This document shows, one piece after another, positions 37,401 through 57,673 of a stretch of 64,000 bases of DNA. Source of the stretch: Trichopria drosophilae. Taxonomy: Eukaryota > Arthropoda > Insecta > Hymenoptera > Diapriidae. Each line of letters opens with the position of its first letter. The first letter of the stretch is position 1. The notes beneath the pieces were generated by a model. That model did not search any database, was not told where the DNA came from, and saw nothing but the letters and a program-made list of their open reading frames with translations. The translations under genes and the position numbers were made by a program. Where the stretch lies: positions 89,380 through 153,379 of the forward strand of contig JAQOWT010000013.1 in assembly GCA_030407085.1 (NCBI GenBank). The letters run 5' to 3'.

Positions 37401-40400
37401 TATCGTCTTCCATATTTTTATCTTTAGAGATGTCGCGTCACATTCGTAATAAATATGCATCCAGTATTACATAGCAAATTTAAGTCGATATGAAAATTGT
37501 ACTATTTTTCGTCAGTTTAGAATATTTCGATGAAATCATCAATGAAAAAATCATAGCGTCTTCTTGAATATACTCATTGCACTCGTAGTATCATCTACCG
37601 TTTCATAGCAACTACAAGAATTAATTAACTAGTCAGTTACATGGGAATTGACAAATTTTGAGCTATAATAGTTCAAGAAGTTGTATTTAGTTTTTTTCTG
37701 TTAGTCTTTATGTTACAGTCTGCGGACCTGTCTACGAAAACTGAAAAATTTTGAACGGTAATGGGATAAGGACGTGTTTTCGTCTTTTTCTGGTAATATT
37801 TATATTACGGTCTACGGACCTGTCTACGAGAAATGAGATTAGGACAGTGCAATTTGAATATAAGCTTGTTTGCATGATTTTCAACACGTATTCTGGTGTG
37901 CAGAAGACTCTTGTTATTTAAATATCGTCTTCCATATTTTTATCTTTAGAGATGTCGCGTCACATTCGTAATAAATATGCATCCAGTATTACATAGCAAA
38001 TTTAAGTCGATATGAAAATTGTACTATTTTTCGTCAGTTTAGAATATTTCGATGAAATCATCAATGAAAAAATCATAGCGTCTTCTTGAATATACTCATT
38101 GCACTCGTAGTATCATCTAGCGTTTCATAGCAACTACAAGAATTAATTAACTAGTCAGTTACATGGGAATTGACAAATTTTGAGCTATAATAGTTCAAGA
38201 AGTTGTATTTAGTTTTTTTCTGTTAGTCTTTATGTTACAGTCTGCGGACCTGTCTACGAAAACTGAAAAATTTTGAACGGTAATGGGATAAGGACGTGTT
38301 TTCGTCTTTTTCTGGTAATATTTATATTACGGTCTACGGACCTGTCTACGAGAAATGAGATTAGGACAGTGCAATTTGAATATAAGCTTGTTTGCAGGAT
38401 TTTCAACACGTATTCTGGTGTGCAGAAGACTCTTGTTATTTAAATATCGTCTTCCATATTTTTATCTTTAGAGATGTCGCGTCACATTCGTAATAAATAT
38501 GCATCCAGTATTACATAGCAAATTTAAGTCGATATGAAAATTGTACTATTTTTCGTCAGTTTAGAATATTTCGATGAAATCATCAATGAAAAAATCATAG
38601 CGTCTTCTTGAATATACTCATTGCACTCGTAGTATCATCTAGCGTTTCATAGCAACTACAAGAATTAATTAACTAGTCAGTTACATGGGAATTGACAAAT
38701 TTTGAGCTATAATAGTTCAAGAAGTTGTATTTAGTTTTTTTCTGTTAGTCTTTATGTTACAGTCTGCGGACCTGTCTACGAAAACTGAAAAATTTTGAAC
38801 GGTAATGGGATAAGGACGTGTTTTCGTCTTTTTCTGGTAATATTTATATTACGGTCTACGGACCTGTCTACGAGAAATGAGATTAGGACAGTGCAATTTG
38901 AATATAAGCTTGTTTGCATGATTTTCAACACGTATTCTGGTGTGCAGAAGACTCTTGTTATTTAAATATCGTCTTCCATATTTTTATCTTTAGAGATGTC
39001 GCGTCACATTCGTAATAAATATGCATCCAGTATTACATAGCAAATTTAAGTCGATATGAAAATTGTACTATTTTTCGTCAGTTTAGAATATTTCGATGAA
39101 ATCATCAATGAAAAAATCATAGCGTCTTCTTGAATATACTCATTGCACTCGTAGTATCATCTAGCGTTTCATAGCAACTACAAGAATTAATTAACTAGTC
39201 AGTTACATGGGAATTGACAAATTTTGAGCTATAATAGTTCAAGAAGTTGTATTTAGTTTTTTTCTGTTAGTCTTTATGTTACAGTCTGCGGACCTGTCTA
39301 CGAAAACTGAAAAATTTTGAACGGTAATGGGATAAGGACGTGTTTTCGTCTTTTTCTGGTAATATTTATATTACGGTCTACGGACCTGTCTACGAGAAAT
39401 GAGATTAGGACAGTGCAATTTGAATATAAGCTTGTTTGCAGGATTTTCAACACGTATTCTGGTGTGCAGAAGACTCTTGTTATTTAAATATCGTCTTCCA
39501 TATTTTTATCTTTAGAGATGTCGCGTCACATTCGTAATAAATATGCATCCAGTATTACATAGCAAATTTAAGTCGATATGAAAATTGTACTATTTTTCGT
39601 CAGTTTAGAATATTTCGATGAAATCATCAATGAAAAAATCATAGCGTCTTCTTGAATATACTCATTGCACTCGTAGTATCATCTAGCGTTTCATAGCAAC
39701 TACAAGAATTAATTAACTAGTCAGTTACATGGGAATTGACAAATTTTGAGCTATAATAGTTCAAGAAGTTGTATTTAGTTTTTTTCTGTTAGTCTTTATG
39801 TTACAGTCTGCGGACCTGTCTACGAAAACTGAAAAATTTTGAACGGTAATGGGATAAGGACGTGTTTTCGTCTTTTTCTGGTAATATTTATATTACGGTC
39901 TACGGACCTGTCTACGAGAAATGAGATTAGGACAGTGCAATTTGAATATAAGCTTGTTTGCAGGATTTTCAACACGTATTCTGGTGTGCAGAAGACTCTT
40001 GTTATTTAAATATCGTCTTCCATATTTTTATCTTTAGAGATGTCGCGTCACATTCGTAATAAATATGCATCCAGTATTACATAGCAAATTTAAGTCGATA
40101 TGAAAATTGTACTATTTTTCGTCAGTTTAGAATATTTCGATGAAATCATCAATGAAAAAATCATAGCGTCTTCTTGAATATACTCATTGCACTCGTAGTA
40201 TCATCTAGCGTTTCATAGCAACTACAAGAATTAATTAACTAGTCAGTTACATGGGAATTGACAAATTTTGAGCTATAATAGTTCAAGAAGTTGTATTTAG
40301 TTTTTTTCTGTTAGTCTTTATGTTACAGTCTGCGGACCTGTCTACGAAAACTGAAAAATTTTGAACGGTAATGGGATAAGGACGTGTTTTCGTCTTTTTC

Positions 40401-43400
40401 TGGTAATATTTATATTACGGTCTACGGACCTGTCTACGAGAAATGAGATTAGGACAGTGCAATTTGAATATAAGCTTGTTTGCAGGATTTTCAACACGTA
40501 TTCTGGTGTGCAGAAGACTCTTGTTATTTAAATATCGTCTTCCATATTTTTATCTTTAGAGATGTCGCGTCACATTCGTAATAAATATGCATCCAGTATT
40601 ACATAGCAAATTTAAGTCGATATGAAAATTGTACTATTTTTCGTCAGTTTAGAATATTTCGATGAAATCATCAATGAAAAAATCATAGCGTCTTCTTGAA
40701 TATACTCATTGCACTCGTAGTATCATCTACCGTTTCATAGCAACTACAAGAATTAATTAACTAGTCAGTTACATGGGAATTGACAAATTTTGAGCTATAA
40801 TAGTTCAAGAAGTTGTATTTAGTTTTTTTCTGTTAGTCTTTATGTTACAGTCTGCGGACCTGTCTACGAAAACTGAAAAATTTTGAACGGTAATGGGATA
40901 AGGACGTGTTTTCGTCTTTTTCTGGTAATATTTATATTACGGTCTACGGACCTGTCTACGAGAAATGAGATTAGGACAGTGCAATTTGAATATAAGCTTG
41001 TTTGCATGATTTTCAACACGTATTCTGGTGTGCAGAAGACTCTTGTTATTTAAATATCGTCTTCCATATTTTTATCTTTAGAGATGTCGCGTCACATTCG
41101 TAATAAATATGCATCCAGTATTACATAGCAAATTTAAGTCGATATGAAAATTGTACTATTTTTCGTCAGTTTAGAATATTTCGATGAAATCATCAATGAA
41201 AAAATCATAGCGTCTTCTTGAATATACTCATTGCACTCGTAGTATCATCTAGCGTTTCATAGCAACTACAAGAATTAATTAACTAGTCAGTTACATGGGA
41301 ATTGACAAATTTTGAGCTATAATAGTTCAAGAAGTTGTATTTAGTTTTTTTCTGTTAGTCTTTATGTTACAGTCTGCGGACCTGTCTACGAAAACTGAAA
41401 AATTTTGAACGGTAATGGGATAAGGACGTGTTTTCGTCTTTTTCTGGTAATATTTATATTACGGTCTACGGACCTGTCTACGAGAAATGAGATTAGGACA
41501 GTGCAATTTGAATATAAGCTTGTTTGCAGGATTTTCAACACGTATTCTGGTGTGCAGAAGACTCTTGTTATTTAAATATCGTCTTCCATATTTTTATCTT
41601 TAGAGATGTCGCGTCACATTCGTAATAAATATGCATCCAGTATTACATAGCAAATTTAAGTCGATATGAAAATTGTACTATTTTTCGTCAGTTTAGAATA
41701 TTTCGATGAAATCATCAATGAAAAAATCATAGCGTCTTCTTGAATATACTCATTGCACTCGTAGTATCATCTAGCGTTTCATAGCAACTACAAGAATTAA
41801 TTAACTAGTCAGTTACATGGGAATTGACAAATTTTGAGCTATAATAGTTCAAGAAGTTGTATTTAGTTTTTTTCTGTTAGTCTTTATGTTACAGTCTGCG
41901 GACCTGTCTACGAAAACTGAAAAATTTTGAACGGTAATGGGATAAGGACGTGTTTTCGTCTTTTTCTGGTAATATTTATATTACGGTCTACGGACCTGTC
42001 TACGAGAAATGAGATTAGGACAGTGCAATTTGAATATAAGCTTGTTTGCAGGATTTTCAACACGTATTCTGGTGTGCAGAAGACTCTTGTTATTTAAATA
42101 TCGTCTTCCATATTTTTATCTTTAGAGATGTCGCGTCACATTCGTAATAAATATGCATCCAGTATTACATAGCAAATTTAAGTCGATATGAAAATTGTAC
42201 TATTTTTCGTCAGTTTAGAATATTTCGATGAAATCATCAATGAAAAAATCATAGCGTCTTCTTGAATATACTCATTGCACTCGTAGTATCATCTACCGTT
42301 TCATAGCAACTACAAGAATTAATTAACTAGTCAGTTACATGGGAATTGACAAATTTTGAGCTATAATAGTTCAAGAAGTTGTATTTAGTTTTTTTCTGTT
42401 AGTCTTTATGTTACAGTCTGCGGACCTGTCTACGAAAACTGAAAAATTTTGAACGGTAATGGGATAAGGACGTGTTTTCGTCTTTTTCTGGTAATATTTA
42501 TATTACGGTCTACGGACCTGTCTACGAGAAATGAGATTAGGACAGTGCAATTTGAATATAAGCTTGTTTGCAGGATTTTCAACACGTATTCTGGTGTGCA
42601 GAAGACTCTTGTTATTTAAATATCGTCTTCCATATTTTTATCTTTAGAGATGTCGCGTCACATTCGTAATAAATATGCATCCAGTATTACATAGCAAATT
42701 TAAGTCGATATGAAAATTGTACTATTTTTCGTCAGTTTAGAATATTTCGATGAAATCATCAATGAAAAAATCATAGCGTCTTCTTGAATATACTCATTGC
42801 ACTCGTAGTATCATCTAGCGTTTCATAGCAACTACAAGAATTAATTAACTAGTCAGTTACATGGGAATTGACAAATTTTGAGCTATAATAGTTCAAGAAG
42901 TTGTATTTAGTTTTTTTCTGTTAGTCTTTATGTTACAGTCTGCGGACCTGTCTACGAAAACTGAAAAATTTTGAACGGTAATGGGATAAGGACGTGTTTT
43001 CGTCTTTTTCTGGTAATATTTATATTACGGTCTACGGACCTGTCTACGAGAAATGAGATTAGGACAGTGCAATTTGAATATAAGCTTGTTTGCAGGATTT
43101 TCAACACGTATTCTGGTGTGCAGAAGACTCTTGTTATTTAAATATCGTCTTCCATATTTTTATCTTTAGAGATGTCGCGTCACATTCGTAATAAATATGC
43201 ATCCAGTATTACATAGCAAATTTAAGTCGATATGAAAATTGTACTATTTTTCGTCAGTTTAGAATATTTCGATGAAATCATCAATGAAAAAATCATAGCG
43301 TCTTCTTGAATATACTCATTGCACTCGTAGTATCATCTACCGTTTCATAGCAACTACAAGAATTAATTAACTAGTCAGTTACATGGGAATTGACAAATTT

Positions 43401-45236
43401 TGAGCTATAATAGTTCAAGAAGTTGTATTTAGTTTTTTTCTGTTAGTCTTTATGTTACAGTCTGCGGACCTGTCTACGAAAACTGAAAAATTTTGAACGG
43501 TAATGGGATAAGGACGTGTTTTCGTCTTTTTCTGGTAATATTTATATTACGGTCTACGGACCTGTCTACGAGAAATGAGATTAGGACAGTGCAATTTGAA
43601 TATAAGCTTGTTTGCAGGATTTTCAACACGTATTCTGGTGTGCAGAAGACTCTTGTTATTTAAATATCGTCTTCCATATTTTTATCTTTAGAGATGTCGC
43701 GTCACATTCGTAATAAATATGCATCCAGTATTACATAGCAAATTTAAGTCGATATGAAAATTGTACTATTTTTCGTCAGTTTAGAATATTTCGATGAAAT
43801 CATCAATGAAAAAATCATAGCGTCTTCTTGAATATACTCATTGCACTCGTAGTATCATCTAGCGTTTCATAGCAACTACAAGAATTAATTAACTAGTCAG
43901 TTACATGGGAATTGACAAATTTTGAGCTATAATAGTTCAAGAAGTTGTATTTAGTTTTTTTCTGTTAGTCTTTATGTTACAGTCTGCGGACCTGTCTACG
44001 AAAACTGAAAAATTTTGAACGGTAATGGGATAAGGACGTGTTTTCGTCTTTTTCTGGTAATATTTATATTACGGTCTACGGACCTGTCTACGAGAAATGA
44101 GATTAGGACAGTGCAATTTGAATATAAGCTTGTTTGCAGGATTTTCAACACGTATTCTGGTGTGCAGAAGACTCTTGTTATTTAAATATCGTCTTCCATA
44201 TTTTTATCTTTAGAGATGTCGCGTCACATTCGTAATAAATATGCATCCAGTATTACATAGCAAATTTAAGTCGATATGAAAATTGTACTATTTTTCGTCA
44301 GTTTAGAATATTTCGATGAAATCATCAATGAAAAAATCATAGCGTCTTCTTGAATATACTCATTGCACTCGTAGTATCATCTACCGTTTCATAGCAACTA
44401 CAAGAATTAATTAACTAGTCAGTTACATGGGAATTGACAAATTTTGAGCTATAATAGTTCAAGAAGTTGTATTTAGTTTTTTTCTGTTAGTCTTTATGTT
44501 ACAGTCTGCGGACCTGTCTACGAAAACTGAAAAATTTTGAACGGTAATGGGATAAGGACGTGTTTTCGTCTTTTTCTGGTAATATTTATATTACGGTCTA
44601 CGGACCTGTCTACGAGAAATGAGATTAGGACAGTGCAATTTGAATATAAGCTTGTTTGCAGGATTTTCAACACGTATTCTGGTGTGCAGAAGACTCTTGT
44701 TATTTAAATATCGTCTTCCATATTTTTATCTTTAGAGATGTCGCGTCACATTCGTAATAAATATGCATCCAGTATTACATAGCAAATTTAAGTCGATATG
44801 AAAATTGTACTATTTTTCGTCAGTTTAGAATATTTCGATGAAATCATCAATGAAAAAATCATAGCGTCTTCTTGAATATACTCATTGCACTCGTAGTATC
44901 ATCTACCGTTTCATAGCAACTACAAGAATTAATTAACTAGTCAGTTACATGGGAATTGACAAATTTTGAGCTATAATAGTTCAAGAAGTTGTATTTAGTT
45001 TTTTTCTGTTAGTCTTTATGTTACAGTCTGCGGACCTGTCTACGAAAACTGAAAAATTTTGAACGGTAATGGGATAAGGACGTGTTTTCGTCTTTTTCTG
45101 GTAATATTTATATTACGGTCTACGGACCTGTCTACGAGAAATGAGATTAGGACAGTGCAATTTGAATATAAGCTTGTTTGCAGGATTTTCAACACGTATT
45201 CTGGTGTGCAGAAGACTCTTGTTATTTAAATATCGT
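19473..45236 (+). repeat. 522-bp satellite, array 2 (49 full periods plus a partial)
   Basis: The landmark ATGAGATTAGGACAGTG occurs at 19563 and at 45141, exactly 49 x 522 bp apart, so there is no net indel across 25.6 kb. Monomers are almost identical. The main variable sites are ATCTACCG against ATCTAGCG and TTTGCAGG against TTTGCATG. The AGCG form is absent from the first eight monomers and becomes common rightwards. The TGCATG form appears in the first monomer and, further on, only in monomers that also carry AGCG. The array is cut at 45236 by the retroelement. No gene is seen; the short ORF open in many array 1 monomers is closed here by TAG. Confidence 0.97.
45233..45236. repeat. target site duplication (left copy)
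   Basis: TCGT immediately before the LTR start TGTTACG; the same four bases follow the other LTR at 58334-58337. Both lie at the same place in the satellite monomer (ATATCGTCTTCC). A 4-bp duplication is usual for Ty3/Gypsy-type integration. Confidence 0.9.
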
Positions 45237-45896
45237 TGTTACGTACCAGTCCTGAAAAGGACTTGTAGTAACAATAAGGTATGAAATACACTGAAGTTAA
45301 AGTTTGAACTATTTATTTATTTATAGACTTTGTTACGCGGGTTGTACATAAGAATATATTCGAGTCGATGGTGGTAGGTTGCGCGGAACCGTTTTAGTCG
45401 CGGTCTTAGTCCGAGATTTTAGTGGACTTTGTCACGGATGGAAATTGACTGAATGGCCTATGGATTTCATCGACCAGGTAACCTCGGGAAAACGATAAGA
45501 TTTCCCGAAGGTACGTGGCTGTAGCTCGTGATGGGCCGCTGGACTCGAAGGGAGCCTTATAAGACTTTCGTAAGAAGTCTGATAAAGCTCTCGTGTCTCG
45601 AGACCGGATGTGTATTCAGATATCGTCTATTCGTTTGATGCGTCGCTGTCGAAAGATAGCGGTGCATCGAACTAGATCGATTAAATATTTAATTAGGCGT
45701 TTATCGCCGAAAATATATACACGTGATGTTCCGAGTGCCGTAAGCGGAAATCCTCCAACAGCCCATCTCGGTATCTAAGGCTGAAGTTTACGGAGATCGT
45801 TGTTTGTCCGGAACAACTAAGATTACATTAAAATATAATAATCTACGTGCGCGGTGCCATAAGATATTAGAAGATGGCGCAGCCGCGTACGTAACA
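45237..45896 (-). repeat. 3' LTR
   Basis: 660 bp, matching 57674-58333 with about ten substitutions counted by eye and no indel. It begins TGTTACGTAC and ends GTACGTAACA. Near its RNA-3' end it has a perfect 6-bp hairpin with a GAAA loop on the plus strand (45248-45263, AGTCCT GAAA AGGACT). A GTG-started 61-codon frame on the plus strand is present in both LTRs but has no ATG and is not called. Confidence 0.95.
45312..45323 (-). promoter_or_regulatory. putative poly(A) signal of the retroelement
   Basis: The plus strand reads TTTATTTATTTA, giving two overlapping AATAAA hexamers on the minus strand, about 75 bp from the RNA-3' end of the LTR. This is a sensible place for cleavage and polyadenylation at the R/U5 border. 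Assigned on motif and position only. Confidence 0.5.
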
Positions 45897-46256
45897 CGCC
45901 CGGGGCCTAAAAAATCGACGTACCACCGTCGATCAACATAAAAATGAATCTATATAATACAAATCTTTGATTGAAACTTAAAAAAAAATGACCCAACGCA
46001 ACGCGTGTTAGTAATATATATGTATACAAATATGTTACGGTCATCTTATACAATTGAAAGATCTTAATCCTAGGGTTAATATTTTACAAGATTGTGAGTA
46101 CGCGTATATGTATATGTACCCTATACATCAAATAGCAGTAGTGGATATATATGTGTGTGTCGCGTGTGTAGTGTATTTATATATGCTAATTTCGTGTCTT
46201 GAAAGTCCTGCATACTTTTGGGCTAGGTATCCCACATCTGCTGGGCATGCCCTGGT
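45897..46256 (-). other. env 3' untranslated region with hairpin
   Basis: 360 bp between the env stop and the 3' LTR, AT-rich, with no convincing ORF. It holds a 7-bp perfect stem (ATCGACG / CGTCGAT, loop TACCAC) close to the LTR. The bases directly next to the LTR on the RNA sense are GGCCCCGGGCG, not the purine run expected of a polypurine tract. Confidence 0.6.
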
Positions 46257-48216
46257 TTATTGCAGGAGTGTCGCTGCATAGCAGACACGAGTCGATTGAG
46301 GCTGGGGTCCGGCATCCTCCATGACTACCTGTCGGACCATTTGATATTCGGACTCCGAGTCTGAGCCGGGATTATCGTCTGTTTGCATGACTACTGACTC
46401 TGCCCGAATGTGACGAACGCGACGCTGTCGAGGTGTTGGAACCTGGAAGTCTGAAACAATACTCTTTCCACAAATTAGTAGATGGAGAGACCCCCAAGGG
46501 AGGAATCTCCAGATTAAAAAGGCTATTACAATAAACAAGATTGAACTCGGTGTTAAGTAATACAGTAAGAACTCTAGAAATGAAACCCTTTCTTTAACGA
46601 ATTCATGTTTACGTATCTCTCGCGCCCTGTCCATTATCTCACTTAGTCTAATCCCTGTGTCTACTAGGTTAGATTTGAGCGATTTCCTAACGTTTTCGGA
46701 GTTTCGGATGCTTTCCAGAAATAGGGTTTGATCGGATGTATTTATTTGTTTCAAAAATATATCATTTATGTTTAACACGGGTTGCTCGTGAAATATATGT
46801 TGCACTTTTATTGTAGCTGTTTTCGATGCTACGAGAGTTGCGCTGGCTGATCTCGCTTCACATCCTGGGTCCATCCTAAAAGTGCCGATACCTGTCGCTA
46901 TCAGCTTCTGAGTTGCCTGATGTTTACAATACATGTGGATTATCTCTTTCCTCGGTGTTGAGAAAATCCATGTATTAGGAGTTTCCAGCTGATGCCAAAA
47001 CATTTTTGTGTTTTTTGTCAGCTGTATTTCGCAAGATGTGAAATCGTTGAATTCATGTTCTTCCAGAATCCGTATTTCGCATTCGCTCTCTGTATTTCTA
47101 GTATGAATTGGGAATTTTCCTTTACAGATTCGGCTGTCAGTACCTATTTTACAGGATTGTTTTTCTGTCTCGTCCAATTTGATGTACCGGTCACCTCCGT
47201 TCGATATGGCAGAATACTTTGTATTTGGCACGATATACGCGGAACGGGTTAAATCTCCGTTTATATTTTGTATCACAGGCACAGGGATGTGTTTAAATAG
47301 TGTAAATTTGAGAGGTGACAGCAACGGTATGTCTATAACATATATTATTTTAGAATCCGTGTATAATATTTTCACGTCGCTTACATCCAATAAATTGGAT
47401 ACAGAGATCGGATTTATATCGACAGGAAAATCGCAGTTCGGTTCCCTGCCTACAATTTCCTTTGCATTTTTCGCGATTATGCTGGGGGAAATTAATTTTG
47501 GGTGAATCTGCCCCCTTTTCGCGAAAAGAATTCCCTCTATTATAATATTCGTATCCGTATAATGGCGTTGCATCTCGATTTCAGTTTCGGTCAATGCTGA
47601 ATTGAGCTCGCCTACGAGATTCGCTCTACTTTGATTCGCCCTCAATTCCAAAATTTTTTGTGAATGTAGACTATCGAGGTGTCCTAAATATGAAGCTAGA
47701 GTCCATAGAGAGTGATTCATGTTCGAAAATTGTAATGAAATTGCGTGAGTTTGATCGACCAGTAAATCCATCGCGTCATTTGTTTTTCGTTCTGCAAACT
47801 CCACATGTTTTTTGATGTCCTGAACCTCTTCATCCTCAGCCGTACCGAAAAGAAATTTATATGCTTTCCCGAATATGTTTAATAACCCTCTTTTCTGTCG
47901 TTGATGTGTTCCTTCGGAGAATAATTCTGTTATGTACTTATGTTCGTCCGCTGTATCATTTATTTGTCTGTATGCTGCTTGGATTCTGTCTTCTAGATTA
48001 CATCCTTTTGTATTCATGCAGAACGTTTTGATGCGGTCGATGTTTTTTTTAAATAATTTTGTTTTCGTATAAAATTCTCTTAGATCTACCGACGGTATGA
48101 ATCTCCACATGAGATTCGTTAATCGTAGGCTTCCTAAGTCTTCAGAAAATAAGCCCGGATTATATATGATTTTTGTAATCTCCCATGGCGGTGTACCCGT
48201 CACGCCAGCCGTCCTC
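46257..48216 (-). CDS. env: Env, baculovirus F-like fusion protein (main exon)
   Basis: A predicted class I-like membrane fusion glycoprotein of the baculovirus F / insect errantivirus Env family (Pfam Baculo_F type). The exon is open from the splice acceptor at 48217 to TAA at 46257. With the 56-nt leader exon the total is 2016 nt, 671 residues plus stop, close to the usual F length of about 650-690. A furin-type RQKR lies near residue 125, followed at once by a hydrophobic GLLNIF...FLFG segment that fits a fusion peptide. A helical, charged ectodomain region with N-glycosylation sequons follows, then one membrane segment near residues 568-591 and a cytoplasmic tail of about 78 residues. The exon has no good ATG at its start; an upstream TTG is not credible because the acceptor lies inside that frame. 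The frame appears intact. Confidence 0.88.
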
Positions 48217-48230
48217 CTGCAAGAAGAAAG
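48217..48230 (-). other. env splice acceptor
   Basis: On the minus strand a pyrimidine tract (CCTCCTCTTTCTTCTT) runs into GCAG, with the exon starting at 48216. The exon begins with one base completing a codon, which matches the two bases left over at the leader donor. This would remove an intron of about 9.2 kb (57423-48217) covering gag and pol, as expected for a subgenomic env RNA. Confidence 0.75.
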
Positions 48231-48408
48231 AGGAGGAATTTTGTTACGTCGTTGTTTGCACAATTGGTCTTAAGCGTATTGACGTGCTGTAGGATCAAGT
48301 CTATGTTTGAAATTATAATTTTTTCTCATTTATGGTTTGTTTCCTTTTATCGTTCATCCCCTGGGAACACATACTTGTAATTTTCGTTCCCGTACTTATT
48401 GCTAGGTC

Positions 48409-48414
48409 TCAGTT
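48409..48414 (+). promoter_or_regulatory. possible initiator (TCAGTT) of the antisense gene
   Basis: TCAGTT matches the arthropod initiator consensus TCAGTY and lies about 60 bp upstream of the first ATG of the plus-strand gene. No clear TATA box or downstream promoter element is visible. Motif match only. Confidence 0.3.
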
Positions 48415-48471
48415 CTGTGTTAGACTTGTCACTGTGAAGAGTGTTCTCTTCGGAAAAAAAAAGGTTGAAAG

Positions 48472-48963
48472 ATGTTCCACTACCTAATTTCTATTGTAAG
48501 TGATGTTCGGATTGTGCGGTGTATACAATGATTACCATAGTGGATAGTGTTAATAACGCGTTAAAAAAAATTTTATTCCAGATATTCCGATTGGTATGGG
48601 AACCACGCGAGGTAAAACGAACGATCCGCCCGTTCGATTCACCTTCTTCAAATACGCGGCCGATTGCCGTCGTAACCCCACGTATGCGCGAGGATGTAAA
48701 GGGTGAAATTCCCGAACCTAGGGATTCTTCACCAGAAGAACCAATCCCTGCCGCACTATCGCGGATTATGGAGACTCTCCGGTCGCGTCAGTCGAATCCA
48801 AATGAGTGAGTAGTGCTTATTTTTGTTACCCATTTTTGTCATTTTTTCCCTATTGTATTGACTTGACACTTCTTTCCGATTTTCCAGTAGGCGTCAGGTG
48901 TTCTATCGCTTACGAGATCGTCTAAGGGAACGAACCTCTCATCCTCTCGAATCCGGACCGTAA
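48472..48963 (+). CDS. three-exon antisense accessory gene, product unknown
   Basis: On the strand opposite to gag-pol-env, in the interval between pol and env. Proposed exons: 48472-48495 (ATG plus 7 codons), 48582-48805 (74 codons plus 2 nt), 48888-48963 (1 nt, 24 codons, TAA). Intron 1 is 86 nt (donor ATT/GTAAGT, acceptor TTTTATTCCAG). Intron 2 is 82 nt (donor TGA/GTGAGT, pyrimidine-rich acceptor TTTTCCAG). Phases agree at both junctions and the joined frame has no stop. The 107-residue product starts with a short hydrophobic stretch, has a Pro/Glu/Ser-rich middle (GEIPEPRDSSPEEPIP) and an arginine-rich end (RRQVFYRLRDRLRER). No signal peptide or known domain is recognised. An AATAAA lies 77 bp past the stop. 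The C-terminus could bind RNA or act as a nuclear signal, but that is inference only. A captured host gene is the main alternative. Confidence 0.72.
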
Positions 48964-49530
48964 AAATTAATTATCCAGTATCGTGTCGACAGATTTCAAA
49001 TATTTTATATATATAAAAATGTAGATTGATACTAATAATAATAAAATAATAATTTTAAAATGTTCGTTTTTCCGTAACATGTGTTTGTATGTGTGAGAGA
49101 GAGAAGAAAAATAAAATGAATGAACAAATGCAAATCACCGTTTGGCATCCTTTGAATTTTTAAAAGACGCGATTTCTCTCTTCAAATTTTTGTCATTATC
49201 AGAACGTCTACTCGGTAACGTTGATTTTTCGGATGCACGACCCCAAAGCCTATTGACGCTTCTTCGGCGTCATCCAGTTCGAGCCCGAATGTTTTCTCGC
49301 CGTGGATACTTGAATGCCATCCGTGATAAGCTCGAAGTTCCATTCAACGTAATGGTTCAAAAATGAACAGATAGAATCCCCATAATGACTGGATGTAATT
49401 GAGAGCAGTAATTTGTGTTTGTTCAACTGATATTATATATTATTAAATTCATAGAAATTTGTACGAGTTAAATTTGTGTATTGATAAAAAAAATGTAAAA
49501 TAATGCGAGATTGTGCCATCTTTTGTATAA
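48964..49530. other. pol-env interval, mostly unassigned
   Basis: 567 bp between the antisense gene's stop and the end of pol. It is AT-rich at both ends, with a more GC-balanced core at about 49140-49370. A plus-strand frame at 49142-49366 is open for 74 codons but starts at TTG with a stop just upstream and no ATG. It would need a splice to be used, and a possible acceptor TTGTCATTATCAG lies inside it. ATTAAA follows about 75 bp after its stop. On the minus strand there is a 54-codon ATG-started frame in the same core. I cannot decide between these, or neither. Confidence 0.4.
49040..49045 (+). promoter_or_regulatory. putative poly(A) signal of the antisense gene
   Basis: AATAAA on the plus strand, 77 bp after the TAA at 48961-48963, within a run of AATAAT repeats. 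A second AATAAA lies near 49112. The AT-rich setting makes chance matches likely, but position and strand fit the spliced gene. Confidence 0.45.
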
Positions 49531-52500
49531 TTAAGTGTTGTGTAATTTCTCTTTACTCATCTCATTGTCTGTATCGTCCCAAGAATCTGAATCAGCTTGG
49601 TCCGGGTTGAAAAGTGGATCGAAGGCTTTTCTTAGTTTATCGACGTGGACTATCTTGCTACGTGTATTAATTTTGATTTTTATGTTTCGAGGTCCGAGGA
49701 TTTCTAAGATTTCATACGGTCCCATATATTCGTCGTCAAATTTCCCTTTAGTCGGTTCCTTGATAACCCACACCATTTCGCCTATATGGAAATGTTTGAC
49801 GTTTAGTTTCCGATCATAGTATCGTTTCGAACGATGTTTTGCTTGGCTTAAATTCATCGCCGCAAGCGTTTGAATTTCCTGCAGATTTCGTGCAAGATTC
49901 GCCAAGTAATCGTCGTAAGTGACTAATTTTTCACGCGATGGGAACCTCGTTGGAGTCCTTGCTTTCCTGCCGAAAATTAGTTCGAAAGGCGTGAATTTTG
50001 TACCTTCATGTTCACTTACGTTGTAAGAGAACATTGCATGTGGTAACCATTCGTCCCAATTCCGTCGATCAGTAACGATGGTTTTAAGGTATTCTTTCAG
50101 TACATGATGGCTGCGCTCGAGACTACCGTTGCTCTGTGGGTGATACGCGGTAGTTTTCGACTGCTTAATTCGGAAGAGTTTGGCGAACTCTTTCAGTACT
50201 TTGCCAATAAAATTCTTTCCTTGATCAGTTAGAATTTGAATTGGCGAACCATAAATGCAAATAAAATGGTCTGTGAAAGCCTTAGCGATTATGGGAGCGG
50301 TAATCTCGGGTAGCGGAATCGCGAGGGAGTACTTTGTTAATTGATCCTGCACTGTTAATACGTACCGATTCCCTCTTTCCGTCAAGTCTGTTGGTCCCCA
50401 AATATCAAGAGATACTTTGTCGAAAGAATATTTCGGTGTATCCGTTATAACCATGGGCAATCGCGTTTTCACTCTTTTTAGTTTTTTACCTTGGCAAATT
50501 TGACATCTTCTGATGTACTCCTGAATATCAGATCTCATGTTACGCCAATACCACTCTTTGCAAATACGACGATAAGTTTTTCTAACGCCCTTATGCCCTC
50601 CTATCGTTGCGCCATGAAATTCGCGGATAATTTCCATGCGGTCTGTTGTAGGCGGAATTCGTATGTTATTTTCGCAAAAAACGATTTTCAATTTCTGGTT
50701 AGAAAATACGGAACGAAATTGTTCGTGAATAACGTTCCATCGTATTTTCGTGATGATGTCTTCGTCATGGCCGACCCTCAATTTTACGACTTTATCTTTC
50801 GTAATTTGAGTTTTTAAGTTTTTTAAGCATTGTATGATGGACATTTTCGATGGTACATCATCTGTTGTGCCCGCTATTATTAATCCGTAGATTTGTACAT
50901 TTCCCCTTTTTGATGTTATTACGTTTCCTATTTTTAAATCTGTTTTTTCTATTTTCCCTGTACGTATGTACCGTCGTTCCCGTAAGGTTAAGACGATTTC
51001 GCTATTAAATTTCCCATCTGCGGTAGTAAAATACACAATATGTCCCGTTTCTTCGAATAAATGTTTTCTTGATATTTTTAATTTTAGTTTATCGCTCTCA
51101 AAATCTGTTGTGAAAGGTTCGTCAAGATTTAATTCTGTGTCAATACCACTTGTTTCGGTCGTTTCGGTCGTATCTGTTTGACCTACTTTTGCGATTTCAG
51201 GTGACCCGACGGGGAGATTAGTGTCCTGTTTGGGGTCTTTAAAATTTCGAACGTGCTGCTCTTCGGTTTGTGATTGTGTGTTTACGTCGGCCTGCACCTC
51301 TCCAGATGTAAACAAACCAGCTGAAGGGTCGGTGTCCTCGATCTCCATTTGACTTTCGACAGAGAAATACGGAGTGTAGTGAACATCTTCCAAGTGAAGA
51401 TGATATATTTTCGAAATGTGAGGTGTTCCTATATGACAGTATTCCACGGATTTATCTGTATTATATCTATGGACGCAGAAATTTACCTTATAATGGAGCG
51501 AAAAAATTTTAAGGATGTTGTCATCACCATATTCGCACTCCCTATCGAGTATGATGTATGCGCGGATGGGCTCTGCGCAATTCTGGGCCTGATCGCTATT
51601 CTGCAGAATTCTTTTCAGGTCATAAAATGACATATCCAAGTTATGCAACTTGATCAACGAGTGGAAGAGGCAGTTTCCATCATTGACAATATTCACATCT
51701 CTTTCAAATTCCGTATATGGTTCGGCACATTTGTTTCCTATTTGATAATTCAACAGTGTGTTAGATATGCCGTCGGTACTTGGATTAGTGTGCGTGTAAA
51801 GCTGCTCTATGTCCTTTCTTCTTTCTTCTTGGCTTCTCGGATCTTGCGGTTTCCTTTTTCTAACTGCCACACGCGGGCTTGTTTCGGGAGATGGTAAATG
51901 CTTTCGCTTTCTCGGCTTTACTTGGGGTTTTATATTTAATCTCGGAGTTGATAGTATTTCAACTGTGTCCATTTCATTTCCATTGGTCCTTGTATGGTGT
52001 CGTTGATCTTCTATATCCATTTGAATTTCTTCGTCCGTAGTCACATCGATATTTATGTCCTCCTTTCCTCTTAATGCGTTTTGATTGTGCGGTTCAGTAT
52101 GGCATGTCGGTATCTGTGGTGTTTTTTCTGATATGTCGAGATTCCTATTAATTAATACGGCTTCATCGCTCCAAGATTCTGATTCCCAATAGTATTCAGA
52201 AAGTGAGTTTCTATTTAATATTTCACTGTCGGTATCAGACTCATCGTCAGGTGTAGAATACGCTTTATCAATCGCTATTTCATGGTTGTTATCATGGTTT
52301 GCGGGAGATAGTGTTGCATCGCCATCGATGCGTTGCTCTGTCTCTCGTTTTTCCAGTGTTGTGTCCTCTTTCTTCTCGTTGAGAGGCACGGACGCTACCT
52401 GCTTTTTGGACGAGCCGTTTTCCGAAGGGATCGTACGCACTGCAGACGAGCCCTGTGTATCAGTTCTTAATATGTTTTCCTTTCGCTCGTCGTTTTCGTC

Positions 52501-54174
52501 CTTTTCTTTCGTCACGTCCAGCGTACGATTTTCTTTCTCGCTCGCTTCGTCTGTGTCAAACCGTTCGTCTTCGTTCGTATCGCCTACTCCCTCTTCTTTT
52601 CTCTCTTTACTTAACTCGATTGTATTTCCACGGGTTTTGTGTGTATTCGAGTCTTCTTGAGCGATTTTGGGAAAAAATGAGACCGTCGATGATGGCAACA
52701 AGCGCGATGACGGGAGTCTTGTTGTAAATTTAAAATCAATGGTTGGATAATTCGAACCTAGATAATGTTGAGGGTTTGTTAAGTTAGAATTTCTGTGCGG
52801 AAGCGGTCGTAGACGGTAGTCATCAATACGCGTGTTCGTGTAGCGTCGGTTTCTTGGCCATGAAAATTCCTTATCATCGATCCTACGTCCTTGTTTATAT
52901 TTTCCTATCCTTTTTTTCTTCTTTCTGCGACGCTCTGATGCCTCTCCTCTCCTTTTTTTCTTTACTCCATTTTCTATGCGTTTGTGTATTTGTTTATCCT
53001 TACCTATCGCATATCGCTCAATCTTATTGTTCCCCGATAGTACATGATTTGCTGGTGCAAATCTAAATGGAGATTTAGGCCGGACCTCCTCGTTCAAAAC
53101 GGGAGCTATAAATGGAGTTTTAGGATACGGGACATGGATCGATGTTGTTTCGGGCATAGGCTTGAACACTTTACCCGATCGCGTTTGTCCTGTTGTCGTC
53201 GCGATTTTCAGGTAATCGGGAATCTCCAGTAGTTTCTCGGCTTCTGAAATGTATTTTTTCCGAGTTATTTTGACATTTCCCGAAGTTTCCTTTTTTGTAT
53301 GTTGTGTTGCCTGTATTTCCGAGACGTTATCTTCGACATCTCCGTTTGTATCCGAATCTTCCGTTCTAGCGGCTATTGTTTTTCTTGCAATAGGCCGTCC
53401 GTTGGAAGAACTTATCTCCATATTGGACCCTAAATGTATTGGATGATATGGGCGATTTCTCTCCTGCGATTTTTTTGTTTTCTGGAGCGGTCTGCATTTT
53501 GCAACCGAATTTTTTGACTCTTGTTTTCCACTCATTTTCTCAAGCGTAGTTACATTTACTCTTGCCAATATCCTTGATTGTGAATTTGTTATGTTAATGT
53601 CGTTTTTCATTTTCTTTACCATAAGCATTTTAAATTTCTCGTTTTTCTCCTTAATTTCGATTTCTTTTTCGTTTTCGTCATAATCGATGGGTCGACTCCC
53701 ATCCGCCGGGTTACGCGATAATGCATCGGCATTAACGTGCCTTTTTCCTTTTTTGTACATAATAGTATATTCGTAATCTTCGAGCTTCATATAAAACCTA
53801 TGCAGACGACGTGTCAGGACTTTCATTGATTTAGAATAAGTAAGGGGTTCGTGATCTGTAATTAACACGAACTTCCGTCCATATAAGTACGGATGAAATT
53901 GCTCCACGGCGTAAACTGCGGCGAGCATTTCTTTCTCTGAAGTCGTATAACGCTCTTCAGCCCCTTTCAAGCCTCGCGATGCATAAGCTACGGGCCTATC
54001 TTCTCCTAATTTGCCTTGAGAAAGTATCGCTCCAAGAGCGAAACCTGACGCATCGGTCGATACAACAAATGTTTCCTCGAAATTTGGGAGTTGTAGTACC
54101 GGGCCTTCGCATAATTTAATTTTTAGCGTTTCAAATGCCTCGATTTGATCCTCCCCAAAATAAACGGCTGCGAA
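49531..54174 (-). CDS. pol: Pol, C-terminal part: RNase H - linker - OTU-like - macro-like - integrase
   Basis: One open frame of about 1,547 codons, continuing pol after a frame break from the RT frame at about 54150-54160. Residues are numbered from the TTG codon at 53970, which is not a real start. RNase H lies upstream of and up to about residue 87 (TDAS, then ITDHEPL and HVNADALSR). Residues 90-750 form a charged, low-complexity linker with a basic cluster near 337-354. Then come an OTU-like domain (757-870), a macro-like domain (960-1102) and integrase (1110-1450). Integrase has H1119/H1126/C1156/C1159 zinc ligands and a D1189, D1249, E1285 triad with 35 residues between the last two, then a GPY module near 1417. 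Gypsy pols usually pass from RNase H to integrase in well under 200 residues, so the insertion is exceptional. The frame itself is uninterrupted to TAA at 49531. Confidence 0.9.
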   Translation of the reverse strand, partial: FAAVYFGEDQIEAFETLKIKLCEGPVLQLPNFEETFVVSTDASGFALGAILSQGKLGEDRPVAYASRGLKGAEERYTTSEKEMLAAVYAVEQFHPYLYGRKFVLITDHEPLTYSKSMKVLTRRLHRFYMKLEDYEYTIMYKKGKRHVNADALSRNPADGSRPIDYDENEKEIEIKEKNEKFKMLMVKKMKNDINITNSQSRILARVNVTTLEKMSGKQESKNSVAKCRPLQKTKKSQERNRPYHPIHLGSNMEISSSNGRPIARKTIAARTEDSDTNGDVEDNVSEIQATQHTKKETSGNVKITRKKYISEAEKLLEIPDYLKIATTTGQTRSGKVFKPMPETTSIHVPYPKTPFIAPVLNEEVRPKSPFRFAPANHVLSGNNKIERYAIGKDKQIHKRIENGVKKKRRGEASERRRKKKKRIGKYKQGRRIDDKEFSWPRNRRYTNTRIDDYRLRPLPHRNSNLTNPQHYLGSNYPTIDFKFTTRLPSSRLLPSSTVSFFPKIAQEDSNTHKTRGNTIELSKERKEEGVGDTNEDERFDTDEASEKENRTLDVTKEKDENDERKENILRTDTQGSSAVRTIPSENGSSKKQVASVPLNEKKEDTTLEKRETEQRIDGDATLSPANHDNNHEIAIDKAYSTPDDESDTDSEILNRNSLSEYYWESESWSDEAVLINRNLDISEKTPQIPTCHTEPHNQNALRGKEDINIDVTTDEEIQMDIEDQRHHTRTNGNEMDTVEILSTPRLNIKPQVKPRKRKHLPSPETSPRVAVRKRKPQDPRSQEERRKDIEQLYTHTNPSTDGISNTLLNYQIGNKCAEPYTEFERDVNIVNDGNCLFHSLIKLHNLDMSFYDLKRILQNSDQAQNCAEPIRAYIILDRECEYGDDNILKIFSLHYKVNFCVHRYNTDKSVEYCHIGTPHISKIYHLHLEDVHYTPYFSVESQMEIEDTDPSAGLFTSGEVQADVNTQSQTEEQHVRNFKDPKQDTNLPVGSPEIAKVGQTDTTETTETSGIDTELNLDEPFTTDFESDKLKLKISRKHLFEETGHIVYFTTADGKFNSEIVLTLRERRYIRTGKIEKTDLKIGNVITSKRGNVQIYGLIIAGTTDDVPSKMSIIQCLKNLKTQITKDKVVKLRVGHDEDIITKIRWNVIHEQFRSVFSNQKLKIVFCENNIRIPPTTDRMEIIREFHGATIGGHKGVRKTYRRICKEWYWRNMRSDIQEYIRRCQICQGKKLKRVKTRLPMVITDTPKYSFDKVSLDIWGPTDLTERGNRYVLTVQDQLTKYSLAIPLPEITAPIIAKAFTDHFICIYGSPIQILTDQGKNFIGKVLKEFAKLFRIKQSKTTAYHPQSNGSLERSHHVLKEYLKTIVTDRRNWDEWLPHAMFSYNVSEHEGTKFTPFELIFGRKARTPTRFPSREKLVTYDDYLANLARNLQEIQTLAAMNLSQAKHRSKRYYDRKLNVKHFHIGEMVWVIKEPTKGKFDDEYMGPYEILEILGPRNIKIKINTRSKIVHVDKLRKAFDPLFNPDQADSDSWDDTDNEMSKEKLHNT
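49621..50643 (-). other. integrase domain region
   Basis: Within pol: an HHCC zinc-binding module, a DD35E catalytic core (SLDIWGP, LTDQGKNF, NGSLERSH) and a C-terminal GPY/F-type module (GPYEILEILG). All catalytic residues are present. It would join reverse-transcribed DNA ends to the target, consistent with the 4-bp duplication. I see no chromodomain after it; the tail is short and acidic. Confidence 0.93.
50665..51093 (-). other. macro-like domain in pol
   Basis: About 143 residues between the OTU-like domain and integrase. The order of features follows the Poa1p/TARG1-type macro fold: a hydrophobic strand (GHIVYFTTAD) where the family has its N-terminal binding strand and acidic residue, then LKIGNVITSKRGNVQIYGLI matching the central strand pair. 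A helix with spaced basic residues follows, then a VGHDEDIITKIRW segment where the family has a glycine-rich loop and a conserved tryptophan helix, and a final strand KIVFCE. Several glycines that contact ADP-ribose in active members are replaced, so binding or hydrolysis is doubtful. Recognised by pattern, not by a profile search. Confidence 0.5.
51361..51702 (-). other. OTU-like cysteine protease domain in pol
   Basis: About 114 residues in the long RNase H-integrase spacer. The start carries NDGNCLFHSL, the hallmark OTU nucleophile motif, with Asp764 and Cys767. The end carries EDVHYTPYF, the catalytic His864 followed by Tyr as in OTU families. Between them are a helical segment and hydrophobic strands of suitable length. 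The family (Pfam OTU, peptidases of clan CA) removes ubiquitin or ubiquitin-like proteins; several RNA viruses encode OTUs that counter host ubiquitin signalling. All core catalytic residues look present. Whether it acts on host ubiquitin or processes Pol cannot be told from the sequence. Confidence 0.8.
51703..53700 (-). other. long disordered linker of pol
   Basis: About 660 codons with no recognised fold, rich in Glu, Asp, Lys, Arg, Ser and Thr. Basic clusters (KKKRRGEASERRRKKKKR near residues 337-354, and KPRKRKHLPSPETSPRVAVR further on) could serve as nuclear localisation signals. Acidic stretches such as DDESDTDSE alternate with them. The frame has stayed open across almost 2 kb although upstream parts of pol are broken, which argues for past coding constraint. 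Confidence 0.6.
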
Positions 54175-55223
54175 CTACGAAGCAGTACAACTAGAGGATG
54201 TGCAATTTTCGAAAAATGTTCTATAAAGCGTCGGTAATATCCTGCCAGACCGAGAAACTGCTTAATATTTTTTCGATTTTTCGGTACCGCGAAATTCATT
54301 ACGGCTTCTACCTTCTTAGGATGGGGTTTGACGCAACTGTTTCCGACGATATGCCCTAGATAAATGGCTTCCTTACATAAAAATCTGCATTTTTCAGGTT
54401 CGAGAGTAAGATTTGCTTTGTTTAAACGCTCCATTAACCGCTCGAATTTTATCTTGTGTTCTTTCAAGTTTTTTGCATAGATCACGATGTCATCGAGATA
54501 TACAAGTAATTCAATTCCTTGGAGTCCCGATAACACGAGATCCATTAAGCGTTGGAAGTCACTGGGCCCATTTTTAATACCCATGGGCATTCGAACATAT
54601 TCATAATGCCCGTGTGGAGTCGAAAAGGCAGTTTTATGGGCGTCTCGATCATCCATTGGGATTTGATGAAATCCTGATTTCAGATCGAGAGTCATGAAAT
54701 ACTCCGATTGACCCAATTGATCGAGTATTTCCGTGACGTTGGGAATAGGATAAACATCGCCTATTGTCTTTTCGTTAAGATCACGAAAATCGATAACCAA
54801 CCTCCATTTTTTAATCCCATCTGGTCCGGGTTTCTTTGGAACGATCCATGCTGGTGAATCGTATGGAGAGGTCGAGTGTCGGATTATCCCAGCTTTTAGT
54901 TGCTCGGCTACTTGTTTTTGCAGTTCTTCCTTAATTGCTGGAGGTTGCCGATACCGTTTTGCTCGGGTGGGTACGTCGTCCTTCGTATGAATTCGGTGCG
55001 AGAATACCGTGGTGCACCCCAACGATTCTCCTGGCAAGTGAAATCTTTCGGCACTTTCTGATATCAATTTCACAACGTGATCGCGCTCTTCGTTGTTTAG
55101 ATGTTGTAAATCTATTAATTTTAAGACCTTTTGAGCTCTCTCATTCTTCTTCGCGGTGTATGCCCTCACGTTCTTGGCATTATCATCGTAGGTATTTAAA
55201 AATGGCAGTTTCGCGATTTCGTC
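54123..55223 (-). pseudogene. pol: Pol, reverse transcriptase part (frame-broken at both ends)
   Basis: This frame is open from just after an in-frame TAG at 55224-55226 down to a stop at 54123. It carries the fingers, palm and start of the connection region of a Ty3/Gypsy RT: WRLVIDFRDLN, the first catalytic Asp in LDLKSGFHQI, and YLDD with the other two, near residues 162 and 224-227 counted from 55169. There is no ATG at the start, as expected for part of a Gag-Pol polyprotein. Upstream, the coding trace moves into another frame (stop at 55196) and then into the protease frame. Downstream, at about 54150-54160, it passes into the RNase H frame. Each move is -1, consistent with single missing bases. 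Catalytic motifs themselves are intact. Confidence 0.9.
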
Positions 55224-55311
55224 CTATACATATTCCCAGACGGTATAATATCGCACTCCTCTAATTCGATTTCCGGAATTTTGACGGTAACTTCTTCTTC
55301 GTGCGTATTTA

Positions 55312-55943
55312 TTATATAAAGGTGTGTATATCCATTATGGTTTTAACTAACGCATTCCCGAAATATATTCCGTAGCCAAGGTTGATCTTCGGAACATAGC
55401 CTATCTTTATACCGGTTTTTATTTTGACGCGAATGACCTTTCTGCATCTGGGTGGGAGTGTTAGAGTCTCATCATCCATGAACGGGATGGTAAAGCTCCC
55501 AAATTGCAAACAACCGTGCCTATAATCGATATTAACGGCGTGTGACCGGAAGAACGGATCTCCTAAAATTCCGTCTTCGGAGATCGGAAATTCGTCGCGT
55601 ACCACTTGCATTTCGACCGGTATATCGTCAAAGTTAATTTTGACCGAACCCATCGTTCTTGTTACCCCATCGCCTATGCCACTCAAGTCGTATGTGGTTT
55701 TTACGTCGACCGTAGCATTTCTTCGTAGGCAACTGAGTTTAATCAAGTTAATCTCAGCGCCTGAGTCAACCAAAAACTTGTTCGACTTGCTGTAAAAATC
55801 CTCACTTTGGATTTCTACTCTCGGGCACCGAACGAGCTCACTAACCCCAAGACGGATTGCGGCTGGTCGGCTGACACCTGTCGGACTCGACGACCTTTCT
55901 CTTGGGCGCTCGACGATCCTAGGGTACGTCGAGCGCCTTCTAA
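55312..55943 (-). CDS. pro: Pro, retropepsin-like aspartic protease (-1 frame after gag)
   Basis: The frame lies -1 to gag and is open from the slippery heptamer at 55944-55950 through the end of gag (TAG at 55815) and on to a stop at 55312. The protease core follows the overlap: LVDSGAEINLI contains the catalytic Asp-Ser-Gly, and ILGDPFF is the conserved second-half motif of retropepsins. About 54 codons overlap the end of gag. It would be made as part of a Gag-Pro(-Pol) fusion by -1 frameshifting and then cleave the polyprotein. The frame ends early relative to RT: a short stretch in a third frame bridges 55317-55196, so Pro and RT are not continuous in this copy. Confidence 0.85.
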
Positions 55944-57176
55944 GTTTAAATCCTCGTTGCGTGGAAGGCGAGAATATTCTTGTATACTATTATTATTTTT
56001 ACGACTGTCATTGGCGAAAGGTCTATCATTCTGGCGTCGCTGCATATTTTCGGGTCGCCTATCTGGGTTATTGTTACGCGAATAATTTTCGTGCGACTGT
56101 CTCCTAACATCTCTGTAAAAATTTTCGCGACTGTTAGGGTTCTCGTAACGATGTTCGTGACGGGGATCTCCAAAATTTCTCAAATTTTCATTTCGACGTG
56201 AGTTCTCGAATCGCCGCGAATCTTCGTAATGACGCGGATCGTCATATCGGCGTGAACCGTCTAATCGAGGCGAATTGTCGTACCTTCGCGAATTACCATA
56301 TCGCGGCGTGATATTCGGTTTGATATCCTGAGCCCGCTGAAATGAAAAACATCTTTCCCTGGTGTGCCCTATTCTACCGCAGTGATCGCACTTTGTTTCA
56401 TTGTAGCGTTTTATGTTGCATTCTTCTTCTACATGCCCGTCTTTTTGACAGTAATTACAGCGGGAATCTCTATCAATGTTTGAATTGATTATATGCGCGG
56501 ATGCATGCCGAATTATATTACTGGACGAGGCGGTCTGTCGTTCCGCGGCCTCGTCTTTCGCACCGAACAAAAAAGTGAATTTTCGCGCCGCGTCTATTCC
56601 TTCCTGCAATGTTTTTACAGGCATATGCATTAGCCGCGATTCCATCATTCCTTTAGCCTCGAGAATGAATCGCTGCAATGCGGCTGAATCAGCGTTTTCA
56701 ATTAAGTACTTTTTTATTTCATTGCCTAGCTCGGAGTCGCTTTCGACTGTACTTGTCAAACGACTAACCGCCTGAGCGAGGCGACCCCCGAAATTTAGAA
56801 ATGTTTCGCCTGTCCTCTGAGTCATGCTATTTATTTCTCCTAAAATATTCGCGGGATTTTCGGTGCGACCAAATGATTTTCTTAGATCCGCTAAGAAAGC
56901 ATCGATAGTGTCGTATGATGATGTACGAGGTCCGAAATGGCTTGCTTCGCCGGACAGTTTTGTCCGTAGAAGAAGCAAGAAAGGTCGAGCATCTTCGGGG
57001 CTCAATATCGAGAACGCATCGCGTACAGCTCTTTCGAACGTTCGAAATCGCTCAAATTGGCCGTCGAACGAGGGAATGATGCCTAACGCCTCATTAATAA
57101 GGGATGGTCTCACGGTCACTGATAGTGGAAAGTTTGCGGACGTGCTTTCCGAGTCGATTTTTATATTTTTTGACAT
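55815..57176 (-). CDS. gag: Gag, capsid/nucleocapsid polyprotein with two CCHC knuckles
   Basis: 453 codons from ATG at 57176 (the first ATG in a frame that stays open a little further upstream) to TAG at 55815. The N-terminal half is a helical capsid-like region (FERFRTFERAVRDAF, FLNFGGRLAQAVSRL). Residues about 240-253 and 263-276 are two CX2CX4HX4C zinc knuckles (CNYCQKDGHVEEEC and CDHCGRIGHTRERC) for binding genomic RNA. Residues about 291-389 are an Arg/Tyr/Asp/Asn-rich tail of loosely repeated SRRYDN-type blocks, probably disordered and RNA-binding. The frame is intact. The end overlaps pro and holds the frameshift signal. Drosophila gypsy-type errantivirus Gags usually lack CCHC motifs, so this Gag points to another lineage. 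Confidence 0.92.
   Translation of the reverse strand: MSKNIKIDSESTSANFPLSVTVRPSLINEALGIIPSFDGQFERFRTFERAVRDAFSILSPEDARPFLLLLRTKLSGEASHFGPRTSSYDTIDAFLADLRKSFGRTENPANILGEINSMTQRTGETFLNFGGRLAQAVSRLTSTVESDSELGNEIKKYLIENADSAALQRFILEAKGMMESRLMHMPVKTLQEGIDAARKFTFLFGAKDEAAERQTASSSNIIRHASAHIINSNIDRDSRCNYCQKDGHVEEECNIKRYNETKCDHCGRIGHTRERCFSFQRAQDIKPNITPRYGNSRRYDNSPRLDGSRRYDDPRHYEDSRRFENSRRNENLRNFGDPRHEHRYENPNSRENFYRDVRRQSHENYSRNNNPDRRPENMQRRQNDRPFANDSRKNNNSIQEYSRLPRNEDLNLEGARRTLGSSSAQEKGRRVRQVSADQPQSVLGLVSSFGARE
55905..55950 (-). promoter_or_regulatory. -1 programmed ribosomal frameshift signal (gag-pro)
   Basis: On the minus strand, TTTAAAC (55950-55944) is read in the gag frame as T TTA AAC, an X XXY YYZ slippery site. 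After a 6-nt spacer comes a perfect 11-bp stem, GGCGCTCGACG with CGTCGAGCGCC (55937-55927 and 55915-55905), with an 11-nt loop. The -1 frame has no stop from the heptamer through the protease core. Sequence, spacing and frame all agree. Confidence 0.88.
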
Positions 57177-57417
57177 TTTCGCAGTTACCGTGCAAAAAAA
57201 TTTAAACACTATATGTGGGTGTACTTTGATTCAATCCAATTTATTTCTTTGTTATTTTATTTTATTTTCTTTTTATTATTATATGTATATATATTTTTTT
57301 GTTTATGTCAAATATTAAAACAATTGGAAATAAAGACACAATATATATAAAAAAAAATATAGCGTGTGATGAAGAAGGTGGAAATTTTAATTATCTATAT
57401 GTGATTAAAAAAGAGTC
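57177..57417 (-). other. gag 5' leader within the env intron
   Basis: About 240 bp, strongly AT-rich, between the splice donor and the gag ATG. No further ORF or repeat is seen. It would stay only in unspliced (gag-pol and genomic) RNA. Confidence 0.6.
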
Positions 57418-57423
57418 ACTTAC
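57418..57423 (-). other. env splice donor (GTAAGT)
   Basis: The minus strand reads CAGG/GTAAGT, close to the ideal donor consensus, with the intron starting at 57423. It is used to remove gag-pol and join the signal-peptide exon to env. Confidence 0.75.
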
Positions 57424-57479
57424 CCTGTGGTTTGAGCGATGATCGCGATCACTCCCAAGATTATTATGGAGAAGTTCAT
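57424..57479 (-). CDS. env: Env leader exon encoding the signal peptide
   Basis: ATG at 57479-57477 begins 18 codons plus two bases, ending at a consensus splice donor. The peptide starts MNFSIIILGVIAIIAQ: a short polar start, a strong hydrophobic core and a small-residue cleavage region, typical of a secretory signal peptide. The main env exon lacks both an ATG and a signal peptide, and its acceptor phase fits the two bases left here. In unspliced RNA the same ATG gives a 19-codon upstream ORF whose TAA lies within the donor GTAAGT. It lies 247 nt upstream of the gag ATG. Confidence 0.78.
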
Positions 57480-57668: not shown

Positions 57669-57673
57669 ATTTA

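Follow-up and report, generated by a model that had tools for sequence, protein, structure and literature searches.

A candidate spliced antisense gene between pol and env of a Gypsy-type LTR element in Trichopria drosophilae

The LTR element within the stretch of Trichopria drosophilae DNA analyzed here (64,000 nucleotides, the window) carries a three-exon unit on the plus strand, opposite to its gag, pol and env open frames. Located between pol and env, the unit has in our estimate a probability of around 50% of being a genuine accessory gene, read in antisense and encoding a small basic protein. The case for a spliced antisense gene is carried by the difference in base composition between its exons, which are GC-rich, and its AT-rich introns, and the evaluation was made on one copy of the element. 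What could be read directly were the frames, the splice signals, the phases, the GC architecture and the position of the unit, the components of which are as follows:

48472-48495, plus strand: antisense exon 1, with the ATG, 8 codons, ending in phase 0, 29% GC
48496-48581, plus strand: intron 1, GTAAGT...TTTTATTCCAG, 3' end TTCCAG, 86 nt, optional
48528-48530, plus strand: in-frame ATG within intron 1, from which a 117-residue form with intron 2 as its sole intron could begin
48582-48805, plus strand: antisense exon 2, 52% GC, ending in phase 2
48806-48887, plus strand: intron 2, GTGAGT...GATTTTCCAG (the same intron is also given as GTGAGT...TTTTCCAG), 82 nt
48888-48963, plus strand: antisense exon 3, with an Arg-rich end and the stop TAA at 48961-48963, 51% GC

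Joined, the three exons make up 324 nt, with an ATG, 107 codons in all and a TAA, and the unit lies wholly within the 1.26-kb gap between the end of pol (49531) and the opening of env (48269). The original prediction had listed three exons, two introns, agreeing phases, an ATG, a stop and a strand opposite to gag-pol-env, and the joined model bears out all of these; the AATAAA that it placed nearby is present at 49040 and at 49110. Intron 1 is dispensable: from 48504 onwards the frame is open, and the ATG at 48528 yields 117 residues with intron 2 alone. The spliced antisense gene is still the best reading of the locus, with exons, phases and strand as predicted, but intron 1 is optional, a further exon was possibly missed and the argument from chance was overstated (see below). 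The minus strand of the same stretch contains a 98-codon open frame (48787-48494), which, like the optional intron 1, the AT-rich exon 1 and the weak codon bias, speaks against the antisense gene.

The element that carries the unit is young and virus-like, and has the following layout:

45237-58333, minus strand: LTR element (gag-pol-env), 13.1 kb
45237-45896, minus strand: 3' LTR, 660 bp, 98.5% identical to the 5' LTR
46257-48269, minus strand: env open frame (Baculo_F), Pfam match
49531-54174, minus strand: open frame with RNase H, long linker and integrase, Pfam matches
54123-55223, minus strand: reverse transcriptase open frame, Pfam match
55815-57230, minus strand: gag-like open frame, named by position
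57674-58333, minus strand: 5' LTR, 660 bp

The LTRs are flanked by the 4-bp repeat TCGT (45233-45236 and 58334-58337), and between them reverse transcriptase, RNase H, integrase and a Baculo_F-type env were all found, the combination by which insect env-bearing Gypsy elements are recognized. For the integrase, Integrase_H2C2 exceeded its cut-off and rve remained just below it (31.8 against 32.6 bits). The gag-like and protease-like frames matched no Pfam family, and Rfam showed no family within the element. In this copy pol is not a single open frame, since the phase changes between the reverse transcriptase frame and the RNase H-integrase frame, and the way from the protease-like frame to that of the reverse transcriptase is interrupted by stops in every phase. 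The linker that separates the integrase match from that of RNase H measures around 1,040 residues. Part of it (51295-51804, minus strand, within the open frame 54174-49531) contains the motif NDGNCLFHS...HYTPY, which we take to resemble that of an OTU cysteine protease; Pfam gave no OTU call on this part (only NUP120_helical_2, E 0.12) and no matching chain was found in the PDB. At 50785-51384 on the minus strand a weak match was observed to PT-HINT, which is a domain of the self-splicing type (E 7.6e-05, 23.4 bits, below the cut-off of 27.7); it lies directly before the integrase zinc-binding domain. The whole element is inserted in satellite DNA, an array with a unit length of 522 bp. Within the part examined (38000-45236) the 300-nt copies were 100% identical and regularly spaced, and the nearest two copies past the element were 98% identical. 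Around 18000-22000 the GC and AT skew of the satellite flip sign, which suggests that the array changes orientation there.

Splice sites were scored with weight matrices, and ranks refer to all GT or all acceptor sites in the element. The two antisense donors ranked only 49 and 58 among 1434 GT sites because their exon sides (ending in ATT and TGA) are poor; the donors themselves, GTAAGT and GTGAGT, are two of the eight GTRAGT sites on the plus strand of the element. Among the 1272 acceptors, that of intron 2 ranked 3 and that of intron 1 ranked 126. The good pyrimidine tracts that had been ascribed to both introns were recovered for intron 2 (70% pyrimidines) and not for intron 1 (44%).

On the codon usage of the element the spliced frame scored +3.1, against -14 to -28 for the five remaining frames that the joined exons offer (stops penalised). 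With a smaller training set, consisting of the codon usage of pol and env, its score was around zero per codon, and chance models scored as well on codon usage in 90 of 914 and 119 of 915 cases. Support for translation of the antisense frame is weak and comes mainly from the frame being open. The predicted product of 107 residues has a Pro/Glu-rich middle and an Arg-rich end, a pI of 10.64 and 18 arginines. The Pro/Glu-rich and Arg-rich parts had been foreseen, as had the lack of a recognizable match: no Pfam family was recovered up to E = 1, neither a bZIP domain nor TRP28 (PF04195). An AlphaFold2 model was made from a single sequence, the 93 codons of the unspliced exon-2 frame (48528-48806) and not the 107-residue product. 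It showed helices at 4-24 and 73-89 with an unstructured stretch in between, at a mean pLDDT of 69.9 and a pTM of 0.26, which is too weak for a fold search.

The search for homologues of the product returned one candidate and no hits in collections that appear poor in insect proteins. Likewise, the scanned viral contigs (a collection seemingly poor in insect DNA) and prokaryote genome contigs included no confirmed relative. The missing homologues say little, because even env had just one hit (545 residues, 28% identity over 70%) and the collections seem poor in insect DNA.

Three further features were found around the unit:

48409-48414, plus strand: TCAGTT, initiator-like, weak, with a second loose match at 48326
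49040-49045, plus strand: AATAAA, 76 nt past the stop, followed by a GT-rich stretch at 49080-49095
49203-49366, open frames on both strands: block 4, GC-rich, its plus-strand frame running to a TGA behind a good plus-strand acceptor

The TCAGTT resembles an arthropod initiator, and an AATAAA near 49040 is expected by chance in such AT-rich DNA; as signals for the predicted gene, both motifs are uninformative. Block 4 may be a further antisense exon. It has 47% GC amid AT-rich flanks, its plus-strand acceptor ranked 12 among 1272, and a segmentation by GC content recovered it with a start at 49200 in one setting and at 49230 in two. Its minus strand holds a 53-codon frame with an ATG, which outscores the plus-strand frame on element codon usage. 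Joining block 4 as exon 4 from 48960 was not accepted, given the weak donor (rank 467 of 1434) and the mismatch in phase (2 versus 1), and the in-frame joins depend on other weak donors. A homologue search with block 4, in collections seemingly poor in insect DNA, gave no candidate.

The unit could be a product of chance, namely non-coding DNA between pol and env that is locally rich in GC, in which an open frame and GT/AG sites happen to line up and from which no product is made. The earlier argument that chance would hardly yield two in-phase introns turned out to be overstated. When the 1.26-kb spacer was shuffled, with the thresholds for sites set just below the values of the candidate, no model was obtained in 1500 whole shuffles, and shuffling in 90-bp blocks gave any model in 4 of 1500 cases and one at the score of the candidate in 1 of 1500. 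In an element-wide control (90-bp block shuffles, sites admitted at loose thresholds, total score and length as in the candidate), a two-intron model as good in splice score and length was found in 1125 of 14,780 strands with GC ignored, and an equally good one-intron form in 704 of 14,780. The real element itself, searched loosely, contained two equal-scoring models ending in one and the same stop on the minus strand near 55754, in the gag-protease region. Splice sites and open frame thus do not exclude chance, given these shuffled strands and the two minus-strand models; the weak codon bias of the spliced frame and the fact that the opposite strand is open as well also point towards it. With tight thresholds, the three-exon unit was the sole two-intron model on the plus strand of the element, and neither strand of the satellite flanks gave one. 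What argues against chance is the GC pattern. Exons 2 and 3 (52% and 51% GC) alternate with introns of 34% each and are followed by 97 bases of 15.5% GC past the stop; exon 1 (29%) breaks the pattern. Such a contrast between exons and introns is usual for coding exons. Sliding the template along the element, we found that 0.05% of the placements more than 60 nt away reached the contrast. An equal model with equal contrast occurred in 1 of 15,996 shuffled strands, and in 3 of 11,268 and 3 of 12,268 with blocks of 60 and 180 bp, respectively. Inside the spacer there were 40 such models among 15,996 strands when the contrast was left out and none among 15,996 when it was included. These counts are to be read with the fact that the contrast was adopted as a criterion post hoc, with the data already seen. 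A segmentation by GC content that was blind to splice sites, run under three settings, each time placed borders at 48587 and 48960, close to the start of exon 2 and to the stop; it did not resolve intron 2. Taken with the contrast, we consider chance unlikely, though it is the most serious of the alternatives.

Two other explanations were weighed. One is that the unit specifies a spliced non-coding RNA, which would pair with the genomic RNA or feed small-RNA silencing, the open frame being incidental. A splice and GC pattern that is present while the codon evidence is weak would fit such an RNA; a complete frame of 107 codons that spans both junctions would not, nor would a contrast of the kind that is common in coding exons. 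Antisense RNAs that have no protein-coding capacity are described for micropia of Drosophila hydei (PMC7264820). We regard the non-coding RNA as quite improbable here. The least probable of the explanations weighed is that a piece of a host gene was captured in antisense direction, or that a nested insertion took place, in this copy or its subfamily specifically, and that the sequence is now in decay, so that exons 2 and 3 and perhaps block 4 would be remnants of a longer host gene. It draws on the GC content of the antisense exons, which is 50% overall versus 39-43% in 2-kb windows across gag-pol-env, and on the exon-like block 4 being out of phase. Speaking against it are the lack of a homologue, in databases seemingly poor in insect proteins, and the lack of clear terminal or flanking repeats framing the spacer: between 48200 and 49600 only short imperfect repeats were observed and none of at least 9 bases between the two edges, so that a nested insertion with flanking repeats is not supported.

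The preferred reading, a real antisense accessory gene, gains a particular setting from the way env is probably expressed. The env of gypsy is spliced. In the present element the start of the env frame shows no signal peptide (by eye), and the best acceptor on both strands of the element lies inside env, with 48216 on the minus strand as first exonic base and 15 of 15 pyrimidines. A matching upstream exon is predicted near the 5' LTR:

57424-57479, minus strand: predicted env leader exon, a hydrophobic leader followed by a strong donor

The donor at 57423 that follows this exon is the second-best in the element, and the leader meets env in phase. The env message is predicted to be spliced from this leader exon to the acceptor at 48216, and because of this the antisense gene would lie inside the env intron. 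The 98-codon minus-strand frame was considered as an alternative N-terminus of env and rejected. It has a hydrophobic end, but no usable minus-strand donor follows (by eye), and the leader exon at 57479-57424 was preferred for its strong donor and right phase.

Antisense genes in retroviruses had been called rare, with HBZ of HTLV-1 as the known case, but they are less exceptional than that. HBZ itself is a bZIP protein encoded in antisense and transcribed from the 3' LTR, and its spliced and unspliced versions have different N-termini (PMC10186651). The present unit is likewise antisense to gag-pol-env and has two possible N-termini, whereas its product lacks a bZIP match, its start lies between pol and env and its introns measure 86 and 82 nt. 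In plants, antisense ORFs situated between pol and the 3' LTR are described for the Gypsy elements Grande (gene23), RIRE2 and Retand (PMC7264820 and PMC11963269). The two papers report that the region upstream of Grande gene23 contains its promoter, that most Retand ORFs contain TRP28 (PF04195) and that a regulatory role has been suggested for the plant antisense ORFs (PMC7264820, PMC11963269). The present unit is similarly placed between pol and the 3' LTR, precisely between pol and env with env further on, but differs in that its product has no TRP28 or other Pfam match and in that the element is not of a plant and carries a Baculo_F-type env. The word 'intron' is absent from the main text of both papers. 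With micropia the unit shares the antisense transcription within a Gypsy-type element, which is inferred in the present case, and it differs from it in that the micropia antisense RNAs are non-coding. The insect env-bearing (errantivirus-like) Gypsy elements resemble the present one in LTRs, reverse transcriptase, RNase H, integrase, Baculo_F env, 4-bp repeat and predicted spliced env; a size of 13.1 kb, a linker of around 1,040 residues and the antisense unit set it apart. The main text of PMC13172572 does not contain 'splic', 'accessory' or 'antisense gene', and the matches listed (titles and openings of abstracts, with partial coverage of the literature) included no case of an insect env-bearing Gypsy element with a spliced gene in antisense. 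Antisense accessory genes are thus already known from HTLV-1 and plant Gypsy elements; a Gypsy-type element with env that also carries a spliced one would be new, and unusual among animals.

For the antisense gene, we infer transcription, splicing, translation and any function from the sequence. It would constitute an extra transcription unit, antisense to gag-pol-env, in the pol-env gap and within the intron of the sense env message, and would be transcribed by RNA polymerase II from a promoter internal to the element. Splicing out one or two short introns would fall to the host spliceosome, and use or non-use of intron 1 would give two N-termini, comparable to the spliced and unspliced forms of HBZ. 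RNA-copied elements normally lose introns that lie in sense direction. The antisense introns would survive retrotransposition because they are backward in the sense genomic RNA and hence unspliceable there. The product would be small and basic, and its most likely role would be to regulate the element, either in the nucleus or by binding RNA. A more specific proposal, tentative and rather unlikely as a whole, is that of a spliced antisense regulator nested in the element's own env intron, with two N-terminal forms and backward introns that persist, and with the Arg-rich exon 3 marking it as a candidate Rev/Rex- or HBZ-like factor that would control whether the unspliced genome is exported or transcribed. 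If the antisense gene is real, retroelements can hold host-like, intron-bearing accessory genes on their opposite strand, and HBZ-like antisense regulation would extend to an env-bearing Gypsy-type element of animals. Considering that the whole gag-pol region is part of the predicted env intron, the idea that such an element has its own regulator of splicing or export would then become testable.
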